Shown one piece after another: positions 4,097-28,583 of a stretch of DNA of 35,964 bases. Numbering within the stretch: position 1 is the stretch's first letter; every line of letters begins with the position of its first letter. A program made the translations under genes and the position numbers. The notes under the pieces are model-generated. The model did no database searches, was not told the origin of the DNA, and was given only the letters and a program-made list of their open reading frames with translations. The DNA lies in the IMG/VR virus record IMGVR_UViG_3300035216_000982, positions 1 to 35,964 of that record; one strand, written 5' to 3'. Source of the DNA: a virus.

Positions 4097-4733
4097 GCCT
4101 TACTGCATAATTGGCGATCTTCATGGACGAATTGAGACCTTAGAAAAGATAATTGAAAGGTCTCCTGGGTATCATTTTGTTTTAATAGGAGATAGTATCC
4201 ACCACAAACCTTTCTTTAAAAGGACTAGGAAGACTTCGCCAGTTCGTACGCTTCAGTATATAAAAAATAAAGTAGTTAGTAATCAGGCAACGCTAATATT
4301 AGGGAATAACGAGAACTATATACTAGAAAACCTGGTGTCTCCAGAAGAGCAGATACTGAAGAGAGAAGTCAAATATACCTTAAAGTGTCTTAGGGAACTA
4401 GATTTTGATGAGAGGCTAGATATTATCTCGTGGTTGGCTCGTTGTCCTCTCACTGTGACTATAGATTCAGATTCTAAGAGATTTAACTTAGGACACGGCC
4501 TGTTTTACAAGGAAGTAAATAAGCATAATAGAGAAAAGATACTATCTGGCCCCGGCTTCCCTTGGTGGAAAGACAGGCTTGAAGAGTATTGTCCCATAGA
4601 AGAAGATATGTATATCTTTGGCCACTACGGCTATCCGTACATGCGTAAGAACCTACTCATATTAGACGCAACTAACTTCGAAGGTGTTGGCGTCTACTAC
4701 ACAGACCGAGAGGAGTTCTTGATCCACTATTGA
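4032..4733 (+). CDS. Metallophosphoesterase (calcineurin-like, ApaH/PrpE type)
   Basis: The 233-residue protein has the metallophosphoesterase motifs in order: GDLHGR (residues 28-33), GDS (53-55, where a protein phosphatase would have GDxVDRG), GNNE (91-94, in place of the usual GNHE), then LGHG and FGHYG histidine motifs near the C terminus. These bind two metal ions and hydrolyse phosphate esters; ApaH-type relatives act on diadenosine polyphosphates or phosphoproteins. The His-to-Asn change in GNHE removes the usual proton-donor histidine, so activity may be altered. The only good start lies 65 bases inside the previous gene; initiation nearer the GDLHG would need a rare start codon. The stop codon lies inside the -35 box of the DNA polymerase promoter. 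Confidence 0.8.
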   Translation: MILPLGKPKSHIGGHLLLPRNRPYCIIGDLHGRIETLEKIIERSPGYHFVLIGDSIHHKPFFKRTRKTSPVRTLQYIKNKVVSNQATLILGNNENYILENLVSPEEQILKREVKYTLKCLRELDFDERLDIISWLARCPLTVTIDSDSKRFNLGHGLFYKEVNKHNREKILSGPGFPWWKDRLEEYCPIEEDMYIFGHYGYPYMRKNLLILDATNFEGVGVYYTDREEFLIHY

Positions 4734-4758
4734 CAGGAACGTCTTCTTGGTATATAAT
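4730..4758 (+). promoter_or_regulatory. Perfect sigma-70 promoter for the DNA polymerase gene
   Basis: TTGACA (4730-4735), a 17-base spacer and TATAAT (4753-4758) match the consensus at all 12 positions. Transcription should start near 4765, leaving a leader of about 14 bases before the ATG at 4779. There is no recognisable ribosome site in it, so translation would be near-leaderless. The host RNA polymerase with its main sigma factor should read it early in infection. Confidence 0.85.
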
Positions 4759-9803: not shown

Positions 9804-9811
9804 CTTTAAAC
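9804..9811 (-). promoter_or_regulatory. GTTTAAAG motif (putative late promoter) for the gp36-like unit
   Basis: GTTTAAAG on the minus strand, 23 bases before the ATG at 9780. It directly abuts the T run of the capsid terminator, so a new transcript would start just where the capsid transcript ends. Confidence 0.6.
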
Positions 9812-9837
9812 AAAAAGGGCCGACCCGAAGGCCAGCC
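9812..9837 (-). terminator. Strong rho-independent terminator after the capsid gene
   Basis: On the minus strand GGCTGGCC, a TTCG loop and GGTCGGCC form an eight-pair stem (two of them G-U wobbles) followed by CTTTTTG. The tetraloop and the T run make this the clearest terminator in the window. It lies 25 bases after the capsid stop codon and should limit or taper read-through into the gp36-like unit. Confidence 0.88.
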
Positions 9838-9862
9838 AGTTTGTTAAGTTGTCGATTATAAA

Positions 9863-12747: not shown

Positions 12748-13299
12748 AGCAAAGTTGTTTGTTTCTAAGGCTTCTTTAAACGAAATAGTGATGTCCCCCT
12801 CTTCGGGAGTCAAGTTAATAATTTTTTCGTTATTAAGTTCACCTTCGGAAAAAGCGGTTAGGCCTTTAACGGCAGGAATTGATACTAGTCCAAGATGACG
12901 AAGTGCTAATTTTCCGGGATAAGGGTTTGTCTCAGCCTCGGGTAAGTAGAACGAGCTACTTACTTTCTTAAACACTCCGTCGCGAATTAGTTTTTCAGCT
13001 TTAGGAGTAAGTTCAACGTTACCCCATAAAGCCTTACCTTTTCTCCAAAGATTTTTTACCCAACCCAATGCTGGGGTTCCGTCTGTTTGATCATGCCCGA
13101 TAATAAGAGGGGCCTCGTGGTCACCAGGAACATAGGTCCCAATAACCTGATCCAGATCCTCCTCTGTGAACATTAATTTTTGCCCAGTAGAGCTGATTTG
13201 AGCACCAGCCCTGAACATTTCTATGTGCACAGATTTCTTCTTTTGTTGAGAAGATAGAGGTTCTTTTGAGTTTATAACCTGTTCTTGATTATCAGACAT
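11380..13299 (-). CDS. Head maturation protease fused to scaffold (Mu gpI-like)
   Basis: Residues 1-150 are a Mu I-type prohead protease: LMFTEEDLDQVIGTY, PLIIGHDQTDGTPALGWVKN (His69 is a candidate catalytic residue), LWGNVELTPKAEKLI, FKKVSSSFY (serines 114-116) and LRHLGLVSIPAVKGL. This follows the family pattern '..GHpktDgpAyGWV..FkkvSaSFY..LRHvgflg..PAvkGL'. The rest (about 185-639) is an extremely acidic, lysine-rich scaffold with tandem EEGMGDEEAPT units, DHAEE repeats, a coiled coil (about 500-530) and a structured C terminus, the usual site for binding the capsid protein. The protease cleaves scaffold and itself after assembly. An internal start at residue 185 may give the scaffold alone. 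ATG 13299 follows the sheath stop by 9 bases. Confidence 0.82.
   Translation of the reverse strand: MSDNQEQVINSKEPLSSQQKKKSVHIEMFRAGAQISSTGQKLMFTEEDLDQVIGTYVPGDHEAPLIIGHDQTDGTPALGWVKNLWRKGKALWGNVELTPKAEKLIRDGVFKKVSSSFYLPEAETNPYPGKLALRHLGLVSIPAVKGLTAFSEGELNNEKIINLTPEEGDITISFKEALETNNFAMTKKKNNDVVKEVSVDQTADHAEGGMTVNINIGGGKPSVYDDSGNEVSETGAPADYKMEYAADEETDEEMAPEAESEAPEGEGEGDDMGLEDEAPTEEGMGDEEAPAEEGMGDEEAPTEEGMGDEEGEGNEPAKEDGEEDISGEMENNDKKIASLAAEYDEDELFQALALKKQAGSMMEKGASYGEMPEGLKKHMEEKEGKGEDDEEKKEEADHAEEVVDNAEEKEEEKKEKEEADHAEEVVDSGEGCGEMEEEKKKKEEDEDEKKSDMSEKVKEEKKEEKADHAEEAAPVATESLDHSESAIGDQSVDNLNARVAELEEELNKQRKLAREKEISSFAEGLYESGKLTEQVVPKGDLVRFMETLNNKNSVNFSETGKASQFDFMRGVLDSLPSMVSFEEFATPTSAPKKSKSVEPNASGYAYDPNTANVHAEALSYAEENDCDYLTAVKFVINNN
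12375..12473 (-). repeat. Three tandem 33-bp units in the scaffold coding region
   Basis: Units starting at 12375, 12408 and 12441 (period 33 bases) encode 11-residue acidic repeats of the form EEGMGDEEAP(T/A); the last is slightly shorter. Copies differ by a few silent or conservative changes. They form part of the acidic scaffold domain and could expand or contract by replication slippage without breaking the frame. Confidence 0.85.
12774..12781 (-). promoter_or_regulatory. Internal GTTTAAAG motif inside the protease-scaffold gene
   Basis: GTTTAAAG on the coding (minus) strand, read as part of the codons for Ser-Phe-Lys, 26 bases before the in-frame ATG at 12747. See the scaffold entry. 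It could be chance, but the position matches that of the motif at true unit starts. Confidence 0.45.
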
Positions 13300-17739: not shown

Positions 17740-17747
17740 CTTTAAAC
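17740..17747 (-). promoter_or_regulatory. GTTTAAAG motif for the minus-strand chaperone unit
   Basis: GTTTAAAG on the minus strand, 27 bases before the ATG at 17712. Together with the plus-strand copy at 17765-17772 it forms a divergent pair with 17 bases between them. Confidence 0.6.
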
Positions 17748-17764
17748 TCTAATTTTGATTTTTT

Positions 17765-17772
17765 GTTTAAAG
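17765..17772 (+). promoter_or_regulatory. GTTTAAAG motif for the plus-strand island
   Basis: GTTTAAAG, 21 bases before the ATG at 17794. Downstream, TCTTAGATAGA (17776-17786) is shared exactly with the bases following the motif at 33304-33311. Confidence 0.62.
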
Positions 17773-20300: not shown

Positions 20301-21105
20301 AGTATTGGTCTATTTGGATATTACTTAGATTCTTAGGAAAGAAAGCATACATTTGAATCGGGATTACATTTGTTGGAGGGGCATTATCCCATAATACCAG
20401 CCAATTGTTTGTGACTAACAACCTAATCTTAGATGCAATTCTATTGTTACCCCAGTTAATGTCATTGCCTCTTAGGTCTAATAGAGTGCTATAAGACTTT
20501 CTGAAAGGAGGTAAAGAGCCCGGAAATATGTTAGCCGAAGAAGTTTTTGTGGGTCTAAAAGAACTCAATGTTTCTTCTAGTCCGTCTTCTGTTAACCTAC
20601 AGTTCTTTAAACTCAATACCTTGATATTTTTAGACAATCCTAATAAAACAGACTCTAAATTAATGCAGTTAGTAAGGTCAAGAAATTCTAGGGCTGATAA
20701 ATTAGACCCAGTAAAGGATCTGAGATTAATATTTCCTTCTAGATTTATTCTCCTAAGAGATGACCTCTTAAGATTCATATTAACATAAAGCAAAGAATTC
20801 CTTTGCAAGTTAATAGACTCTATGTGGGGATCTATGCTGTTACCGGTCTCTGCGTCTATCCACAAATCGTCCCAAGTGAGTATCTCTTGGTTTGTTAGTT
20901 TTAATTCTCCTAGCGGCGGTGGAGAGGTGACTATTATATCTAAAACACAAGAGTTTGATTTTTGTTTTGATAGATAGACATTGTCGTCTGAAACAATATT
21001 TTTATTTGGGAAATCTACATAATTAAAAGAACTATTTTGCTTCTTTGTTATAGGTAGTAGAACTGAGTCCTTATTGCTTAGAAGAAAGTGAGTAGATATT
21101 TTCAT
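20281..21105 (-). CDS. Leucine-rich-repeat protein, 274 aa
   Basis: The middle (about residues 88-215) has several leucine-rich repeats of the LxxLxLxxC/N type: IESINLQRNSLLYVNM, LRRINLEGNINLRSF, LEFLDLTNCINLESV, IKVLSLKNCRLTEDGLEETL and a last STLLDLRGNDINW. Repeats of 20-24 residues with Asn or Cys at the turn position indicate a curved solenoid. The N terminus is strand-rich and the C terminus (NWLVLWDNAPP...) is not recognised. LRR solenoids bind other proteins; in a virion operon a role in receptor binding or baseplate assembly is possible. The ATG overlaps the stop of the 1322-aa gene (ATGA). LRR proteins are uncommon among phage structural genes. Confidence 0.75.
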   Translation of the reverse strand: MKISTHFLLSNKDSVLLPITKKQNSSFNYVDFPNKNIVSDDNVYLSKQKSNSCVLDIIVTSPPPLGELKLTNQEILTWDDLWIDAETGNSIDPHIESINLQRNSLLYVNMNLKRSSLRRINLEGNINLRSFTGSNLSALEFLDLTNCINLESVLLGLSKNIKVLSLKNCRLTEDGLEETLSSFRPTKTSSANIFPGSLPPFRKSYSTLLDLRGNDINWGNNRIASKIRLLVTNNWLVLWDNAPPTNVIPIQMYAFFPKNLSNIQIDQYYGRPKI

Positions 21106-24100
21106 TTAGATAAACCTCCTGCTAGGGTTTTAGGACAGAATTTCAAGAACGCTACTTCGTCCTCTTTAATAAATCTCTTACATTTTAATAGGCTCATACA
21201 GGCTTGATAAGCGTAAGGGTCCTCTAATAGAGCACACTTAAATGGCCCATCTTTTTCCCACCTTGCTTTTATTGCCTCTATTAACGCAAATTCAGAGTTG
21301 TAGTACATAGAGTAATACTTCTCTTTAGGATCAACCACTTCTTGGGCAGAAGTAGTTAAGTTTATACCAGAATCATTTGAATCTAATGATGAGTCATTTG
21401 TTTTCTTTGTAAAGACAATCGGCTCTGATTTTAATTCAGACAAAATAGGCTCTCCGTTTAAGCCAATCCTTACTTCCTCGTCGTCAAACACATTAAAGAA
21501 TAGTGGTCTGTTATTTGGCATATTTGGCAAGAAAACATTACTCAACTTAATCTCTGAGTTTTTGCCGTAAGGGCGATCTATTAGTATACCACTATTAGAG
21601 ATCGGGGTAAACGGAGTATCATCTCTCTCAGAATATATTGCTTTATTAGTAGGCTCTCCGCAGGAGTTTATTATCCTCTCTATATTTTCTTCGCAATTTG
21701 TACCACCAAATTTTTTGCACGATTGTACAGCATCAAACTCTGTTATCAGCTTGTCTTTTACTAAATTTGCTACTACTGATGTTTCTACTTTGCTTTTAAA
21801 GTCGTTACTAATAAATAGCAAAGGGTCTACGGAGTCAAGATTTTTATTAACGACAAAGCCTGCTTCAGGTCCTACTCCAGATACCTGACCCTGTTTGTTA
21901 GAGGCTAGGTTTTGCTTACTGGGATTCGAGCTTAACTCACTTACACCGAACTTAGCTAATGCTACTGAGTTAACAGGGGAGATTCCTGTGATTAACCTAT
22001 TATCTTCTATTACTTTTGTAAACTTATCTAATACGTTACTTTCGGTAATATTATTACTAATCCTAGGTGCTAAGAAAGAGAAATTTGTAATAATCTGAGG
22101 AGAAAGTACATTAGCTTGCTCTGGAGTAATACTATTTTCTTTAGGTACAGACTCTGGAACCGGAGAGTTACCAATACCTGGAGAGCCCATTATTGTCTCA
22201 GTACCCCTCAAAGAAGGTTCTCCAAGAGTCCCAAGATCTCCGTTTATGGGAACAATCTCTCTAACAAGCCTTGACAGAGTATCAGTCTCTTTATTATAAG
22301 AGTTAATAATATTATTGAAGGAATAAAGATCTGGGACATCTTGAGAGAAATCGTCCTCTAGGGTGTTAATAAAATTAGTAATAGTTAAATCTAAAGAGAG
22401 TACTAAAGACTTGAGTATCTCTACAACAACAGTTAAATTGAAAGGACTACGAGGCATAACAAAGAAGTTAGGGGCCTGATACGAATTATTGTAATACCCT
22501 ATCTTATGTAGTACGCCACTTAAATAGGCATAGTTAAGGACCTTAGTTAGCCGCCCACCTTCGTATCCCTCAAGTAGTTGACCTAAATCTGTGTGAAAAG
22601 ACTCTGGATTTAAGGTTTTAATAAGTTCTTTTACAGTCAATCCCTGGCTCTTGTCATACAAGTTTTGCAGGAAGTTTGTAGACGCTTCTCCTAGATTTTT
22701 ATCAAGTATTTCTGTGTATTGTTTTAAAGCTAGCGGAGCGTGCTCATTAGCGGTTTGATAGTCGATAGAATAGGAATTAAGATCAAAAGCAGATTTTCCA
22801 AATATTAAAGATTTAGATACAGGGTTTAAAAGATTAACTTCTTCTTTATTTAGCAATATATTTCTTTCTTTATTTTTTAACAAAAAGGAAATTGATTCAA
22901 AGAATGTGAGCCTATTACCAGATAGATAAGACTTAAATAGCTCGAGCTGCTCTGGGTTTATTGCAAAAGTTAAACTTACCAGCAAACCCACTAATTTACC
23001 AAATCTGCTAGCATTATAAGTAGTTGCTTTTGATTGATCTTTTAACGCAATAGTAAGCAGATTAATTAGACCCTTATCGTCTGGGGAATAAAGATATCCT
23101 AGGTAGGCATCAATTGCGGACTCTCCTCCAAACTCGTATATTAATTGAGATAGCTCGTATCCTTTAAAAAACGAAGCCTGGTCTCTTGAATCAGACAAAG
23201 GAGCAAAATTTAATAGTAGCTCTTCAAGGGTCTCTGCAGAGATAAACTCATTAATTTCACTTTCCTGAAAATTTAATGACCTTAGGCTGTCTATTAGAGT
23301 CTCTTTATCTGGTAAGGAATTTTTAAAAGAGATGTTGGGTATAAAAGTTCCTGGCTGATATCCTATTGTCTCAATGTCGTCTATAATTCTTTCTAGATAT
23401 TTCTGCACTTTTCTGCTCCATAGGCTGAGTTTCCTTAGAGACTCTCCTGTAAAAGGTATATCTGGAACTACTGTAGTTAATTTCTGATAAGATTTTAGGA
23501 GATAGGTTGTTAATCCATTTAGCCCAGGAAGGACTTTTTCTCCTCTAGAAATCAACGCTTCAAGATCTGGCCTTGGAATAAACACGTTACTTAGTTCTTG
23601 CATTTGTAAGTAGATAGAGCCCAAGCCTTCGTATCCTGCAAGCTCGCCGTTTCTATCTAAAGACGTTGCAACAGCATTAACAGTGTCTCCTAGAGTACCA
23701 GAAATGTTAGTAATTGTTTCTAAGCCGAACAATATAACATCCACACTATACTGATAGTTGTCTGTGTAGGGGTTTCTAATGTTAAGAACAAAGCGATCTC
23801 TTATACCATTACTGTATTTTGAATATAGAGGGTTATGCATAATCTCTACTAGCTCGTTGACTTTACCCTTGTTTACTATTTTGGTTTCAACGTCTGGATT
23901 TAGAGTTAAATTTTGTTTAAAAGACTTAAGGTATTTAAATCCTTCAATAAATTTAAGTCCGGCTATTTTATTAGTCTCTCCTGTGTAATAATAAATTAGA
24001 TCAAAGTTACCAAATAAGTTTACTCCAGATACTGAAGAAAAGCCATCAGCTAAGTTTCTACCATAGCACCCAGAATAGAGATACTCACAAAAAGAAGCGA

Positions 24101-25070
24101 TGTAATCGATGTCTCCTACAGGAGAGGCCTGTTTATTTCCAAAGTACCTTATCACAGTTTTAAGGGAGACAATACTATCAACAATCCCCTTTCCCGACCC
24201 TCCAAAAGTCAAAGAAAGATCTTTCTCGTCATACACTAGCCCAGTATCAAGGCTCGTTTCTTTGCTATCAGAGATAATACCGTTGATATCGCTTGCCTCT
24301 TCTAAAGCGTTAACTACATACTTATTAACATTTTTCCTGAGTCTATTATTAAATGTTTTTTCTTTATTCAAATACTTTGAAGTATACTCGCTCCATTCCT
24401 CTCGATCAAACTCTGTGTTAGGTCTACTAATATCTCTATTTAGAACGTAAAGGACATCATTTAGAATCGTGTAGATCTTTCTGCCATAGAATGGGTTTTC
24501 TTTATATTTCTTAGATTGCACTTCCCAGTAGTTATCCTCTCCAAACAAAGAATAAATAGTATCGTTATTTATCTCTCTTGATGAGTAAGAGTCTTTAACA
24601 ACAGCCAGAGAAGGACCATAGTCAGAGATAAGCTGAACAATCTGCTCTGTTCTAAGCCCCTTTAAAAACAGATCTAAGTTTACTAGAGAACTAGCTATCT
24701 GCTCATAGTATTGATTAATATATAGCTCTATGGTTGTGTTCTTTCTATTAAATGCCTCTTTTAAGAACTCAATAACTGACTGATTTATTATAGAGTATAG
24801 CCCTAAGAATCTAGGGACGTTAAATTGCAATTGCACCAAAACGTAGGAAAGATCAGCGTACAAAGGTACAGTAGATAGAGGTTTGTCCTTCTCTATCCTT
24901 ATGAACAAAGTACTCATGAAGTCAAGCATTGTCTTTTTAAACTGCTTTTCTTCAGAAGAAACTTTTAGCTCTTCTACCTGGGTTTTATATATAGCAAAAG
25001 CAGTATCGACAATCGTAGGCAGGCTTCCCCTTATACCTTGTACCTGTATTCGAGTTAGATCCGAAACCAT
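21102..25070 (-). CDS. Very large protein of unknown function, probably virion/baseplate (1322 aa)
   Basis: I do not recognise a family. The first ~850 residues are mostly helical with frequent tyrosine, asparagine and leucine (for example LYINQYYEQIASSLVNLDLF, LLKSYQKLTTVV). Around 940-1090 it becomes low-complexity, rich in Pro/Ser/Asn (SPGIGNSPVPESVPKEN). The C terminus has strands and six cysteines, including a CALLEDPYAYQACMSLLKCK region. No signal peptide, membrane segment or enzyme motif is seen. Leading an operon with an LRR and a fibre-like gene, and driven by the GTTTAAAG motif, it is probably a structural protein such as a baseplate wedge component. Being injected into the host is another possibility. 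Confidence 0.7.
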   Translation of the reverse strand: MVSDLTRIQVQGIRGSLPTIVDTAFAIYKTQVEELKVSSEEKQFKKTMLDFMSTLFIRIEKDKPLSTVPLYADLSYVLVQLQFNVPRFLGLYSIINQSVIEFLKEAFNRKNTTIELYINQYYEQIASSLVNLDLFLKGLRTEQIVQLISDYGPSLAVVKDSYSSREINNDTIYSLFGEDNYWEVQSKKYKENPFYGRKIYTILNDVLYVLNRDISRPNTEFDREEWSEYTSKYLNKEKTFNNRLRKNVNKYVVNALEEASDINGIISDSKETSLDTGLVYDEKDLSLTFGGSGKGIVDSIVSLKTVIRYFGNKQASPVGDIDYIASFCEYLYSGCYGRNLADGFSSVSGVNLFGNFDLIYYYTGETNKIAGLKFIEGFKYLKSFKQNLTLNPDVETKIVNKGKVNELVEIMHNPLYSKYSNGIRDRFVLNIRNPYTDNYQYSVDVILFGLETITNISGTLGDTVNAVATSLDRNGELAGYEGLGSIYLQMQELSNVFIPRPDLEALISRGEKVLPGLNGLTTYLLKSYQKLTTVVPDIPFTGESLRKLSLWSRKVQKYLERIIDDIETIGYQPGTFIPNISFKNSLPDKETLIDSLRSLNFQESEINEFISAETLEELLLNFAPLSDSRDQASFFKGYELSQLIYEFGGESAIDAYLGYLYSPDDKGLINLLTIALKDQSKATTYNASRFGKLVGLLVSLTFAINPEQLELFKSYLSGNRLTFFESISFLLKNKERNILLNKEEVNLLNPVSKSLIFGKSAFDLNSYSIDYQTANEHAPLALKQYTEILDKNLGEASTNFLQNLYDKSQGLTVKELIKTLNPESFHTDLGQLLEGYEGGRLTKVLNYAYLSGVLHKIGYYNNSYQAPNFFVMPRSPFNLTVVVEILKSLVLSLDLTITNFINTLEDDFSQDVPDLYSFNNIINSYNKETDTLSRLVREIVPINGDLGTLGEPSLRGTETIMGSPGIGNSPVPESVPKENSITPEQANVLSPQIITNFSFLAPRISNNITESNVLDKFTKVIEDNRLITGISPVNSVALAKFGVSELSSNPSKQNLASNKQGQVSGVGPEAGFVVNKNLDSVDPLLFISNDFKSKVETSVVANLVKDKLITEFDAVQSCKKFGGTNCEENIERIINSCGEPTNKAIYSERDDTPFTPISNSGILIDRPYGKNSEIKLSNVFLPNMPNNRPLFFNVFDDEEVRIGLNGEPILSELKSEPIVFTKKTNDSSLDSNDSGINLTTSAQEVVDPKEKYYSMYYNSEFALIEAIKARWEKDGPFKCALLEDPYAYQACMSLLKCKRFIKEDEVAFLKFCPKTLAGGLSK

Positions 25071-25090
25071 GCTAAAACACTTTTTTTAAA

Positions 25091-25098
25091 CTTTAAAC
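25091..25098 (-). promoter_or_regulatory. GTTTAAAG motif, minus-strand half of the inverted repeat
   Basis: GTTTAAAG on the minus strand, 20 bases before the ATG at 25070. A related TTTTAAAC lies next to it (25084-25091). It is the left arm of an exact inverted repeat with the plus-strand copy at 25104-25111. Confidence 0.65.
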
Positions 25099-25103
25099 TT
25101 TAA

Positions 25104-25111
25104 GTTTAAAG
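25104..25111 (+). promoter_or_regulatory. GTTTAAAG motif, plus-strand half of the inverted repeat
   Basis: GTTTAAAG, 21 bases before the ATG at 25133. Only TTTAA separates it from the minus-strand copy, so the two divergent promoters would stand back to back in a 62-base intergenic region. Confidence 0.65.
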
Positions 25112-25132
25112 CTTTGTAGCTATGATCAAATT

Positions 25133-25600
25133 ATGCCCGCCAAAACTTCCGTAGTTATTATAAAGTCCAAATCTGTTGATAATGCATCTGACCTCAACAA
25201 GATGGTTGTCCATCTAGAGCAAATCTTAACAGAAAAGGAGGGCGTTGAAATAAAGGTAAGGCAATCAATTACCGAGGCTTTAGTTAAAGGCTCCGATTTT
25301 ATAGTCTTTGCAGGATGGGATAATTCTTTACTATCGTCATTCTTTAGCGCCTTGAGTACGATCGAGAAGATAGAACCTCCTGTAGATAAGAAGATCTTTT
25401 TATTCGATGAGCCAGGTAGTAATTGTTGGACGGACTTGAATAGGATCCTGACTTTTGGAATGGATCTAGGTAGAGTAGATCAAAACTTATTTGAAAAAAT
25501 TGTTGACTGTTGGAATTATCGTGATATAATGAGCTATATAGAGTTCAAACTACGTCAGTTAAACGAGAATGATAGCACAGGAAATACTGACACTAAGTAA
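25133..25600 (+). CDS. Hypothetical Rossmann-like protein, 155 aa
   Basis: No certain family. The pattern, a first strand (SVVIIKSKS), a helix, DFIVFAGWDNSLLSSFFSAL, then KKIFLFDEPGSNCWTDLNRI and a final helix after CWNYRDIMSYIE, resembles the second half of LOG/'lysine decarboxylase-like' proteins. Those have a strand and GG loop, a helix, then 'kPi.ll...g.w..l...l...g' and 'v.....d..eea..~i'. The nucleotide-binding GGxGT loop of that family is missing (GWDNSL instead), so it would not be an ordinary LOG enzyme. It heads a unit leading to the portal, and the next gene starts 32 bases before its stop. It may be a virion assembly factor; function open. Confidence 0.55.
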   Translation: MPAKTSVVIIKSKSVDNASDLNKMVVHLEQILTEKEGVEIKVRQSITEALVKGSDFIVFAGWDNSLLSSFFSALSTIEKIEPPVDKKIFLFDEPGSNCWTDLNRILTFGMDLGRVDQNLFEKIVDCWNYRDIMSYIEFKLRQLNENDSTGNTDTK

Positions 25601-26534: not shown

Positions 26535-26704
26535 CCCAAGGCCAAAACGTCCGAGTGGAGGGCGCAGAGGAATTAATTAAAGAATGGGAAGACGGAGAAA
26601 TCACTGTTGAGGAGCTTAGGACTAAGATTTTGGAGCTTGAAACTGTGTATGTTGACTTAACCAAGGTAGTTGAGCCAACTCAGTTTAAAGATAGCGAAGA
26701 ATAA
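26510..26704 (+). CDS. Small acidic protein, 64 aa
   Basis: An acidic helical protein (VEGAEELIKEWEDGEITVEE, then LRTKILELETVYVD). AAGGAA inside the end of the previous gene serves as ribosome site for ATG 26510. The last codons (Gln-Phe-Lys-Asp) contain a GTTTAAAG motif placed to serve the portal gene. Family unknown. Confidence 0.6.
   Translation: MEEGINILTQGQNVRVEGAEELIKEWEDGEITVEELRTKILELETVYVDLTKVVEPTQFKDSEE
26683..26690 (+). promoter_or_regulatory. GTTTAAAG motif directly before the portal gene
   Basis: GTTTAAAG in the last codons of the 64-aa gene, 24 bases before the portal ATG at 26715. Like the copy in the protease gene, this one sits in coding sequence yet keeps the distance seen at true unit starts. 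It could provide extra portal transcription independent of the upstream unit. Confidence 0.5.
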
Positions 26705-26714
26705 TGTGTTGTAA

Positions 26715-28583
26715 ATGACCTCTGAAAATCCTCAAAGGCATATCAAATCTGGGTTTTTTGATCGCTATTTTTCTTTGGGCACTCCTCAAGGAAATCTAGC
26801 AGGATACAAATCAGATCCGTATTCCTACTCAGGTGCTCCTTACCTTACGAGCGGAGTAATACTCCCTCGTAGAGACGATATCCTTTTAGAAGAAGGAGGC
26901 GGCGGCCCCCGCGCAATTGAAAAATATATGAGGCTGTTTAACGACAGCCAAATCCTTGCTGCTTGGGAAAAGCTAATAGGAGAGATTATTCAAAGGCCTT
27001 GGGAGGTTTACCCTTCTTCAGATAGACCAGAAGACGAAGAAATTGCAGAGTTCGTACGACAAGTCATTAATCGTATGGGCAGCAATACAAGACAATCTTA
27101 TGGAAAAGAATCTTTAGTATCCACGAGCTCAGGGTTTGATACCTTCATCCGTGGCATGTGTGAGTCTATTGTGCTCGGCATGTCAACTGGAGAGATCTGC
27201 TGGATGCGACAAGGTAAGTACATCGTGCCATCTGAGATAAAAATCAGGGACCCACGTAGGTTCTTATTTCGCTTGAATGAGGATGGGACAGTAAGTCCTA
27301 GGCTTATCACTATGTTCTCTCCTGTAGAGGGCATGGGTATACCTTTAAGGTCCATGATTATGCATAGGCACTGGTCCTATAGCAACTTCATGGACGTGCA
27401 TGGCTCAGGGCTAGGACGCCAGCTTTATCCTCTTGTTGAGTTTAGAAGGACTCTACTTAACTTCTGGCTTCAGTACGCAGATAAGCATACAACACCAACA
27501 GCCGTAGGTAAATTCAGTCTAGGCACACCTGAAGAAGAAGTTAATTCTTTATTTAGTGCATTACAACGTTTAGGGCAAGAGACTGCCGTTGTTATACCCG
27601 ACGAGATGGACATTCAATGGCTGGAGAGCAATGGTCGCCCAGAACTCTACAACCAGCTTATTACATATATTGATCAACAGATCAGTTTTGTGATTAATGG
27701 AGAGACAACCGTTGGTCAAGAGACCGGTAGTGTTGGCTCATTTGCGCGCGATCAAATCGCCGACTCTGTGAGGATGAGGAAGGCCAAGGCTTTCTCTGAA
27801 GAGCTTGATGAAACAATTAACTCTACTTTGGTCCGATGGATAGTAGAACTCAATTATCCTGGCAAGACTCCTCCTAGGTTGGTACGTAACTTCGAAGATC
27901 TCAAGCAGAGAGAGGATCCCGTGCGCATGGTGCAAGTACTCTCCCAGTTAGGAGCTTTAGGGTACCAAGTAGATGACGTAGACTGGCTAAGGGAAAAACT
28001 TAACATCCCTTCATTGACCAAGCAGGAAATGCCTGAAGGTGGAATGATGGGAGGTATGATGCCTCCTATGGAAGGTGGTCAAGAAGCCGAGGCTCCTATG
28101 GCCGAAGACATGGACTTTGGCACAGACCTCATGAAGCTATTCGATTTTGAAGAGCCTTCAGAGAAACAGAAGATGTCCCAAGAGATCGCTGCTAATTTCA
28201 AAGGAGATCTCGATGATGTTGGTTTCCAACGCATTGTAACTGACTCTACAGGTAATGAGATGCAGATCTCTAGGCTGAAGATAGATGAGTTTACCTCACC
28301 AGGGGAGATTATCTTTGTCATAGAGAGACTCCTAGAAGAGATAAGAAACGTACGAAAACAGCCTCCTGAGACTCTTGAGCTTAAGGCAAGGTGTGAGACA
28401 GAAGTACAAAGGATGAAGAGCCTTATAGAGCAAGAGGGTCTATCTGAAGGTGATTCTATGGATCTGATCTCTTTATACGAGGAGACATTTAGATTAAATA
28501 GATACGCCGTGCATAGAGAAGCCGTGACTCTAAATATAGAGAAGAAAGGATATTGGAGATGGTTTGATCCGTACTTCCAGTAA
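26715..28583 (+). CDS. Portal protein (DUF935/Mu gp29-like)
   Basis: The 622-residue protein follows the DUF935 portal pattern: AIEKYMRLFNDSQILAAWEK, IIQRPWEVYPS, VLGMSTGEICWM, IKIRDPRRFLFR, GSGLGRQLYPLVEFRRTLLN, TTPTAVGKFSLG, AVVIPDEMDIQWLES, ITYIDQQISFVINGETTVGQ and the RDQIADSVRMRKAKAFSEEL helix. It would form the dodecameric ring at the capsid vertex through which DNA is packaged. A methionine/glycine/proline-rich linker (about residues 437-460) joins a C-terminal helical domain (to 622) that is longer than in Mu. Packaging genes should lie nearby, but no large terminase is in the window. Confidence 0.88.
   Translation: MTSENPQRHIKSGFFDRYFSLGTPQGNLAGYKSDPYSYSGAPYLTSGVILPRRDDILLEEGGGGPRAIEKYMRLFNDSQILAAWEKLIGEIIQRPWEVYPSSDRPEDEEIAEFVRQVINRMGSNTRQSYGKESLVSTSSGFDTFIRGMCESIVLGMSTGEICWMRQGKYIVPSEIKIRDPRRFLFRLNEDGTVSPRLITMFSPVEGMGIPLRSMIMHRHWSYSNFMDVHGSGLGRQLYPLVEFRRTLLNFWLQYADKHTTPTAVGKFSLGTPEEEVNSLFSALQRLGQETAVVIPDEMDIQWLESNGRPELYNQLITYIDQQISFVINGETTVGQETGSVGSFARDQIADSVRMRKAKAFSEELDETINSTLVRWIVELNYPGKTPPRLVRNFEDLKQREDPVRMVQVLSQLGALGYQVDDVDWLREKLNIPSLTKQEMPEGGMMGGMMPPMEGGQEAEAPMAEDMDFGTDLMKLFDFEEPSEKQKMSQEIAANFKGDLDDVGFQRIVTDSTGNEMQISRLKIDEFTSPGEIIFVIERLLEEIRNVRKQPPETLELKARCETEVQRMKSLIEQEGLSEGDSMDLISLYEETFRLNRYAVHREAVTLNIEKKGYWRWFDPYFQ

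Follow-up and report, generated by a model that had tools for sequence, protein, structure and literature searches.

Back-to-back copies of a predicted late-promoter element in a 62-base gap between divergent virion operons of a TIM5-like cyanophage

The short gap separating two divergent operons in a TIM5-like cyanophage very probably holds two overlapping late promoters, each specified by a single −10-like element, GTTTAAAG, which has no −35 partner and would be read by the phage sigma factor SigF. The DNA studied (hereafter "the window") is one strand of 35,964 nt, positions 1 to 35,964 of record IMGVR_UViG_3300035216_000982. Protein matches identify it as a 36-kb virus fragment of a TIM5-like cyanomyovirus related to S-TIM5: gene order is the same as in the 36-66 kb segment of S-TIM5 and the 1110-aa tail sheath protein is 68% identical to its S-TIM5 counterpart. 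The window's DNA polymerase has a mitochondrial-type exonuclease domain (phrog_22619, PF18136), and a tRNA-Val (TAC) gene lies at positions 422-494. The operons on both sides of the gap encode virion proteins according to the S-TIM5 annotation. The rightward operon begins with genes for proteins of 155, 321 and 64 aa, followed by the portal and tail tube genes; the portal gene is preceded by a GTTTAAAG copy of its own at 26683-26690.

Features of the divergent junction and its flanking genes (window coordinates; strand "." denotes features not assigned to a strand)
Feature	Position	Strand	Basis or remark
1322-aa virion structural protein gene	21102..25070	-	43.6% identity to S-TIM5 'virion structural protein and packaging'
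Predicted start region of the 1322-aa gene, leader about 14-15 nt	25084..25085	-	same spacing rule as for the rightward operon
Conserved 27-bp block TAAACTTTAAACTTTRRGTTTAAAGCT, including the partial third copy	25087..25113	.	24 non-redundant relatives
Late-promoter element GTTTAAAG (−10-like) of the 1322-aa gene	25091..25098	-	exact match
Perfect 21-bp palindrome CTTTAAACTT-T-AAGTTTAAAG	25091..25111	.	sequence read directly
Spacer TTTAA, 5 bp (TTTRR in most relatives)	25099..25103	.	length compared across loci
Late-promoter element GTTTAAAG of the rightward operon	25104..25111	+	exact match, kept in relatives
TAG, predicted rightward operon start at A25118, leader about 15 nt	25117..25119	+	predicted from the TAG spacing of GTTGAAAG promoters
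Rightward operon gene 1, 155 aa	25133..25600	+	predicted Rossmann/flavodoxin-like fold, pLDDT 89
Portal gene of the rightward operon	26715..28583	+	Portal_Mu (Mu-type), E = 1.7e-73

Direct reading of the junction confirmed that CTTTAAAC (25091-25098) and GTTTAAAG (25104-25111) are exact inverted copies on either side of TTTAA (25099-25103), lying 20 and 21 bases from the start codons at 25070 (minus strand) and 25133 (plus strand), as a preliminary description of this DNA had stated. The further proposal that the 62 bases between the starts (25071-25132) amount to two promoters with short leaders and little else was supported by comparison with relatives. The palindrome turned out to be longer than first noted, with 10-bp arms around a central T (10+1+10), and a partial third copy of the motif, TAAAC (25087-25091; GTTTAAAA on the minus strand), abuts the left arm. 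AT-rich and palindromic DNA of this kind might reflect chance repeats or a structural element such as a cruciform or a terminator; we regard this as next to impossible. The window contains 11 copies of GTTTAAAG where 1.84 are expected, and none of 100 shuffles reached this number; among 2.9 million viral contigs, the composite TAAACTTTAAAC-N5-GTTTAAAG is present in just 37, with a single copy in each. Enrichment and rarity together indicate that the pair of arms did not arise by chance. All 37 contigs fall within an independently built list of portal-gene relatives, and conservation extends to distant ones; moreover, no terminator-like site was found at the junction, and transcription is predicted to start downstream of the palindrome in both directions.

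The properties of GTTTAAAG as a promoter class became apparent in the S-TIM5 genome, which contains 36 copies. In an unsupervised ranking of 8-mers upstream of S-TIM5 virion genes, GTTTAAAG ranked first, far ahead of all others (17 genes versus 0.26 expected). Twenty-seven of the 36 copies are in the sense orientation no more than 100 nt upstream of a gene, and none is found in the antisense orientation only. With two exceptions the distance from motif to gene is 18-49 nt, the minimum to an ATG being 18 nt. The motif precedes 18 of 45 virion genes as opposed to 9 of 140 others (p = 4e-7), and three of these nine (49167, 57083 and 122840) are paired divergently with a virion gene. When only genes with intergenic upstream DNA were counted, GTTTAAA[GT] preceded 16 of 22 virion genes versus 8 of 66 others. 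Upstream of the motif, no −35 consensus was found and columns −45 to −1 were without any clear consensus, while the seven bases downstream are 80% AT, compared with 59.5% for the genome. From these features we infer that GTTTAAAG is the late-promoter element of this phage group. The TIM5-like late promoter is defined in this analysis by a sense GTTTAAAG that precedes a virion gene or operon by about 18-50 nt. Both arms of the junction conform to this definition, and the left arm in particular has the motif, orientation and distance seen at other virion promoters. A −35 role for GTTTAAAG was discarded: with only 18-25 nt to the ATG, transcription would have to start inside the gene. Also dropped was an archaeal TATA box serving a leaderless mRNA, an idea prompted by the 20-21 nt distances, since the window is from a cyanophage.

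Within the arms, TTTAAA resembles a weak −10 box, so that they could be merely degenerate −10 boxes for host holoenzyme containing SigA. Other genes of this phage can indeed carry host-type promoters: the DNA polymerase gene is preceded by a consensus sigma-70 promoter (TTGACA-17-TATAAT, 12 of 12 positions) at 4730-4758. In contrast, a search of 24900-25300 for TTGACA-N16-18-TATAAT gave no match at the junction; the late-class motif lacks a −35 partner and occurs chiefly ahead of virion genes; and it gives way to another motif across a whole clade whose phage sigma is also divergent (see below). Host SigA promoters are thus a very unlikely account of this site.

Relatives gathered by portal protein showed the arrangement to be widely kept. 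In 44 loci, some redundant and the window included, the junction carries CTTTAAAC-N5-GTTTAAAG or a form with one mismatch, and the 5-bp spacer was present in all 28 of the GTTTAAAG loci examined in detail; one further locus (L220) has a 6-bp spacer. All 24 non-redundant relatives compared retain the left arm (with one mismatch in three), the right arm lies 20-22 nt from the ATG in 18 of 19 non-redundant relatives, and the pair persists even where the N-terminal part of the leftward protein is only about 25% identical. The corresponding junction of S-TIM5 (57022/57083; Aurunvirus, JQ245707) has the same genes, site (at 57041-57061) and orientation, with TTTGA as spacer; its leader sequences differ from those of the window and JQ245707 annotates no promoter there. 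A 27-bp block is nearly invariant, 23 of its columns being conserved at 0.9 or above in the 24 non-redundant relatives, whereas the leader sequences on both sides of TAAACTTTAAACTTTRRGTTTAAAGCT vary. A second divergent late-promoter pair of the window, at 17740-17772 (17740/17765), has a spacer of 17 where a second clade has 6. A divergent pair of S-TIM5 (122783/122802) has a spacer of 11.

The perfect 10-bp arms of the window, the 27-bp conservation and the constant 5-bp spacer in the GTTTAAAG clades are also what one might expect of an operator, that is, a symmetric 21-bp site at which a dimeric activator or repressor controls both operons. This reading appears improbable. Identical lone motifs precede most virion genes, and most GTTTAAAG promoters are single sites; spacers are 6, 11 and 17 at other divergent pairs and mostly 8-10 at this same junction in the clade using GTTGAAAG; many relatives deviate from perfect symmetry outside the 8-mers (spacers TTTGA and TTGAG); and no convergent pair was found within 40 bp. 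In addition, fold and domain comparison recognised no DNA-binding domain or fold in the neighbouring 155-aa protein, and the predicted fold of this protein led us to discard it as an autoregulator as well. The suggestion in the preliminary description that an activator might bind the palindrome as a dimer was therefore not supported, and such an activator is not needed to account for the site: single sites are the rule, and the spacing varies elsewhere and in the other clade.

Locus L067, whose portal protein is 58% identical to that of the window, led to a third clade (members L065-L067 and L188-L215). Loci of this clade contain at most two copies of GTTTAAAG but 3-13 copies each of GTTGAAAG, and their promoter consensus is GTTGAAAG-C-N4-TAG. 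At the junction, the left arm is kept in all 18 cases examined (16 exact, two with one mismatch). Twelve of the 18 also keep an inverted second arm, which in some is degenerate; the spacer measures 8-10 in 11 of these junctions and 23 in one. The other six have lost the second arm. The window site itself reads GTTTAAAGCTTTGTAG and so also fits the longer form of the GTTGAAAG clade. Retention of arms at the same junction indicates that the pair is old and that both arms changed together with the promoter set. Thus, on comparison of these genomes, the late-promoter set has switched clade-wide from GTTTAAAG to GTTGAAAG-C-N4-TAG, both arms following in most members, and the divergent arrangement appears to have been kept even where the signal changed.

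A sigma factor of the phage would be the natural reader of such a signal. S-TIM5 has one annotated sigma factor, "SigF" (110339-111109), which matches sigma-70 region 2 and phage sigma families and aligns with cyanobacterial SigA over domains 2-3 only. The gene is present in every searched TIM5-like record of at least about 70 kb and in one of 50 kb; it gave no match in three shorter records (39-54 kb) and is absent from the window's 36-kb fragment. Between clades, the segment KGANFSTWVNRCLQFHMLNYLRD of the GTTTAAAG clades becomes K-ANFSTWLNRSLTFQ(V/L)LNYLRD in the GTTGAAAG clade, where C73/Q75/H77 in region 2.3-2.4 are replaced by S/T/Q. The changed positions presumably lie in or next to the sigma-70 helix that reads the −10 element. 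A change in the recognition segment alongside a change of motif is suggestive, not proof, since the sigma proteins of the two clades are only about 39% identical overall and changes in the helix are thus not specific proof. Judging from its presence, its homology to sigma domains 2-3 and its co-variation with the motif, SigF is most likely the reader of GTTTAAAG. Its AlphaFold model was poor (pLDDT 58.7) and was left unused. A search for a single-subunit RNA polymerase (PF00940) gave no match, as did the control search.

We propose that host RNA polymerase carrying phage SigF would bind either arm, open the AT-rich DNA beyond it and start transcription about 7 bases past the arm, producing leaders of about 15 nt. 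The rightward transcript would cover the 155-aa/321-aa/64-aa/portal operon and the leftward one the 1322-aa virion gene; the palindrome would be a by-product of setting two promoters back to back. The predicted start positions derive from the third clade, where TAG lies 13 bases from the start of the motif in 50 of 100 non-redundant GTTGAAAG promoters and the next base is A in 89%, a fixed offset that probably marks the start. This signal is weaker in GTTTAAAG promoters and no TAG is found in the predicted start region on the minus side of the window. With elements 13 bp apart and predicted starts separated by about 34 bp, there would hardly be room for two polymerases at once, and they would presumably take turns. 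The geometry thus makes it plausible that polymerases choose a direction or compete at the junction, as had been suggested.

In the GTTTAAAG clades conservation reaches past the two 8-mers, so that selection may act on something in addition to a pair of independent promoters; such a pair does not explain the TTTRR spacer, the TAAAC third copy and the constant 5 bp. An extension compatible with the two-promoter reading is that the exact geometry couples the promoters, polymerase choice or competition setting the ratio of the operons. We hold this possible, if rather doubtful. The 5-bp spacer is constant across loci at about 25-50% protein identity, upstream columns are conserved at 14 of 20 positions compared with 0-5 of 20 at most other promoters, and overlapping divergent promoters of E. 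coli compete if strongly activated (PMC12825309). However, the same study saw no competition at basal activity, and members of the GTTGAAAG clade mostly have 8-10 bp between the arms or lack the second arm altogether, so the exact geometry is not generally required. Tolerance of other spacings in that clade also means that part of the extra conservation may reflect low indel rates and shared ancestry. Somewhat more speculative still is the idea that the 27-bp block is one composite element, proper to the GTTTAAAG-type phages and less strict in the sister clade. Its two phage-sigma promoters and the partial third copy would be coupled by their geometry; polymerase bound in one direction would then determine how much is made in the other, and with it the proportion of the two structural operons.

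The T4 late promoters, with an 8-bp element, no −35 and AT-rich downstream DNA (PMC2988020), offer a close parallel. As in T4, the element lacks −35 conservation and is followed by AT-rich DNA (both features found when tested here), presumed late genes are served on either strand and the phage encodes a sigma-family protein. The 8-mer was found de novo; its −10 position, about one helical turn upstream of the start as in T4, is a prediction that depends on a start deduced only from the TAG signal. The sequences differ, T4 using TATAAATA with gp55/gp33/gp45 (PMC2988020) and TIM5-like phages GTTTAAAG or GTTGAAAG; the TIM5-like sigma carries the annotation SigF, not gp55, and its matches are to domains 2-3 of bacterial sigma factors. 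The junction also recalls prokaryotic bidirectional promoters (Warman et al. 2026; PMC12825309) in its pseudo-symmetric DNA, close divergent starts and expected steric exclusion. In those promoters polymerases exclude each other, competition mattering only at high activity, and a −10 element is shared, with starts typically 10, 18 or 23 bp apart (PMC12825309); the junction, however, has no single shared −10 but two separate 8-mers 5 bp apart, with predicted starts about 34 bp apart. The late promoters of Ma-LMM01 likewise serve late genes of a cyanomyovirus, but they are SigA-like, with −35 and −10 boxes, in a phage without a gp55-type sigma (PMC5780444), and the TIM5-like class differs from them.

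The proposed mechanism belongs to a well-known kind; more is learned from the motif code and from its switch across a whole clade. For a widespread lineage of cyanophages these yield a simple, testable rule for late promoters (GTTTAAAG or GTTGAAAG-C-N4-TAG), probably tied to one phage sigma, and a natural pair of sigma and motif variants for −10 reading without a −35. The back-to-back pair offers a compact natural test of polymerase competition, in which one 62-base gap could switch on structural genes in both directions. The open-access papers searched contained no description of the TIM5-like transcription programme and none of the motif; that literature excluded the original S-TIM5 paper.

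Copies of GTTTAAAG are found inside genes as well. One, at 20605-20612 (minus strand), lies within a 274-aa gene; AGTTTAAAG occupies this site in all nine distinct near sequences (61-100% identical around it) and is absent in distant ones, a pattern that suggests an internal late promoter. Another, inside the head-maturation protease gene at 12774-12781 (minus strand), has the same 518-nt offset as in S-TIM5 and could drive an internal transcript. Finally, at 9804-9840 (minus strand) a G+C-rich hairpin followed by a T run, resembling a terminator, comes after the capsid gene and abuts the GTTTAAAG of the next gene, an arrangement that is the same in S-TIM5 at 41609.
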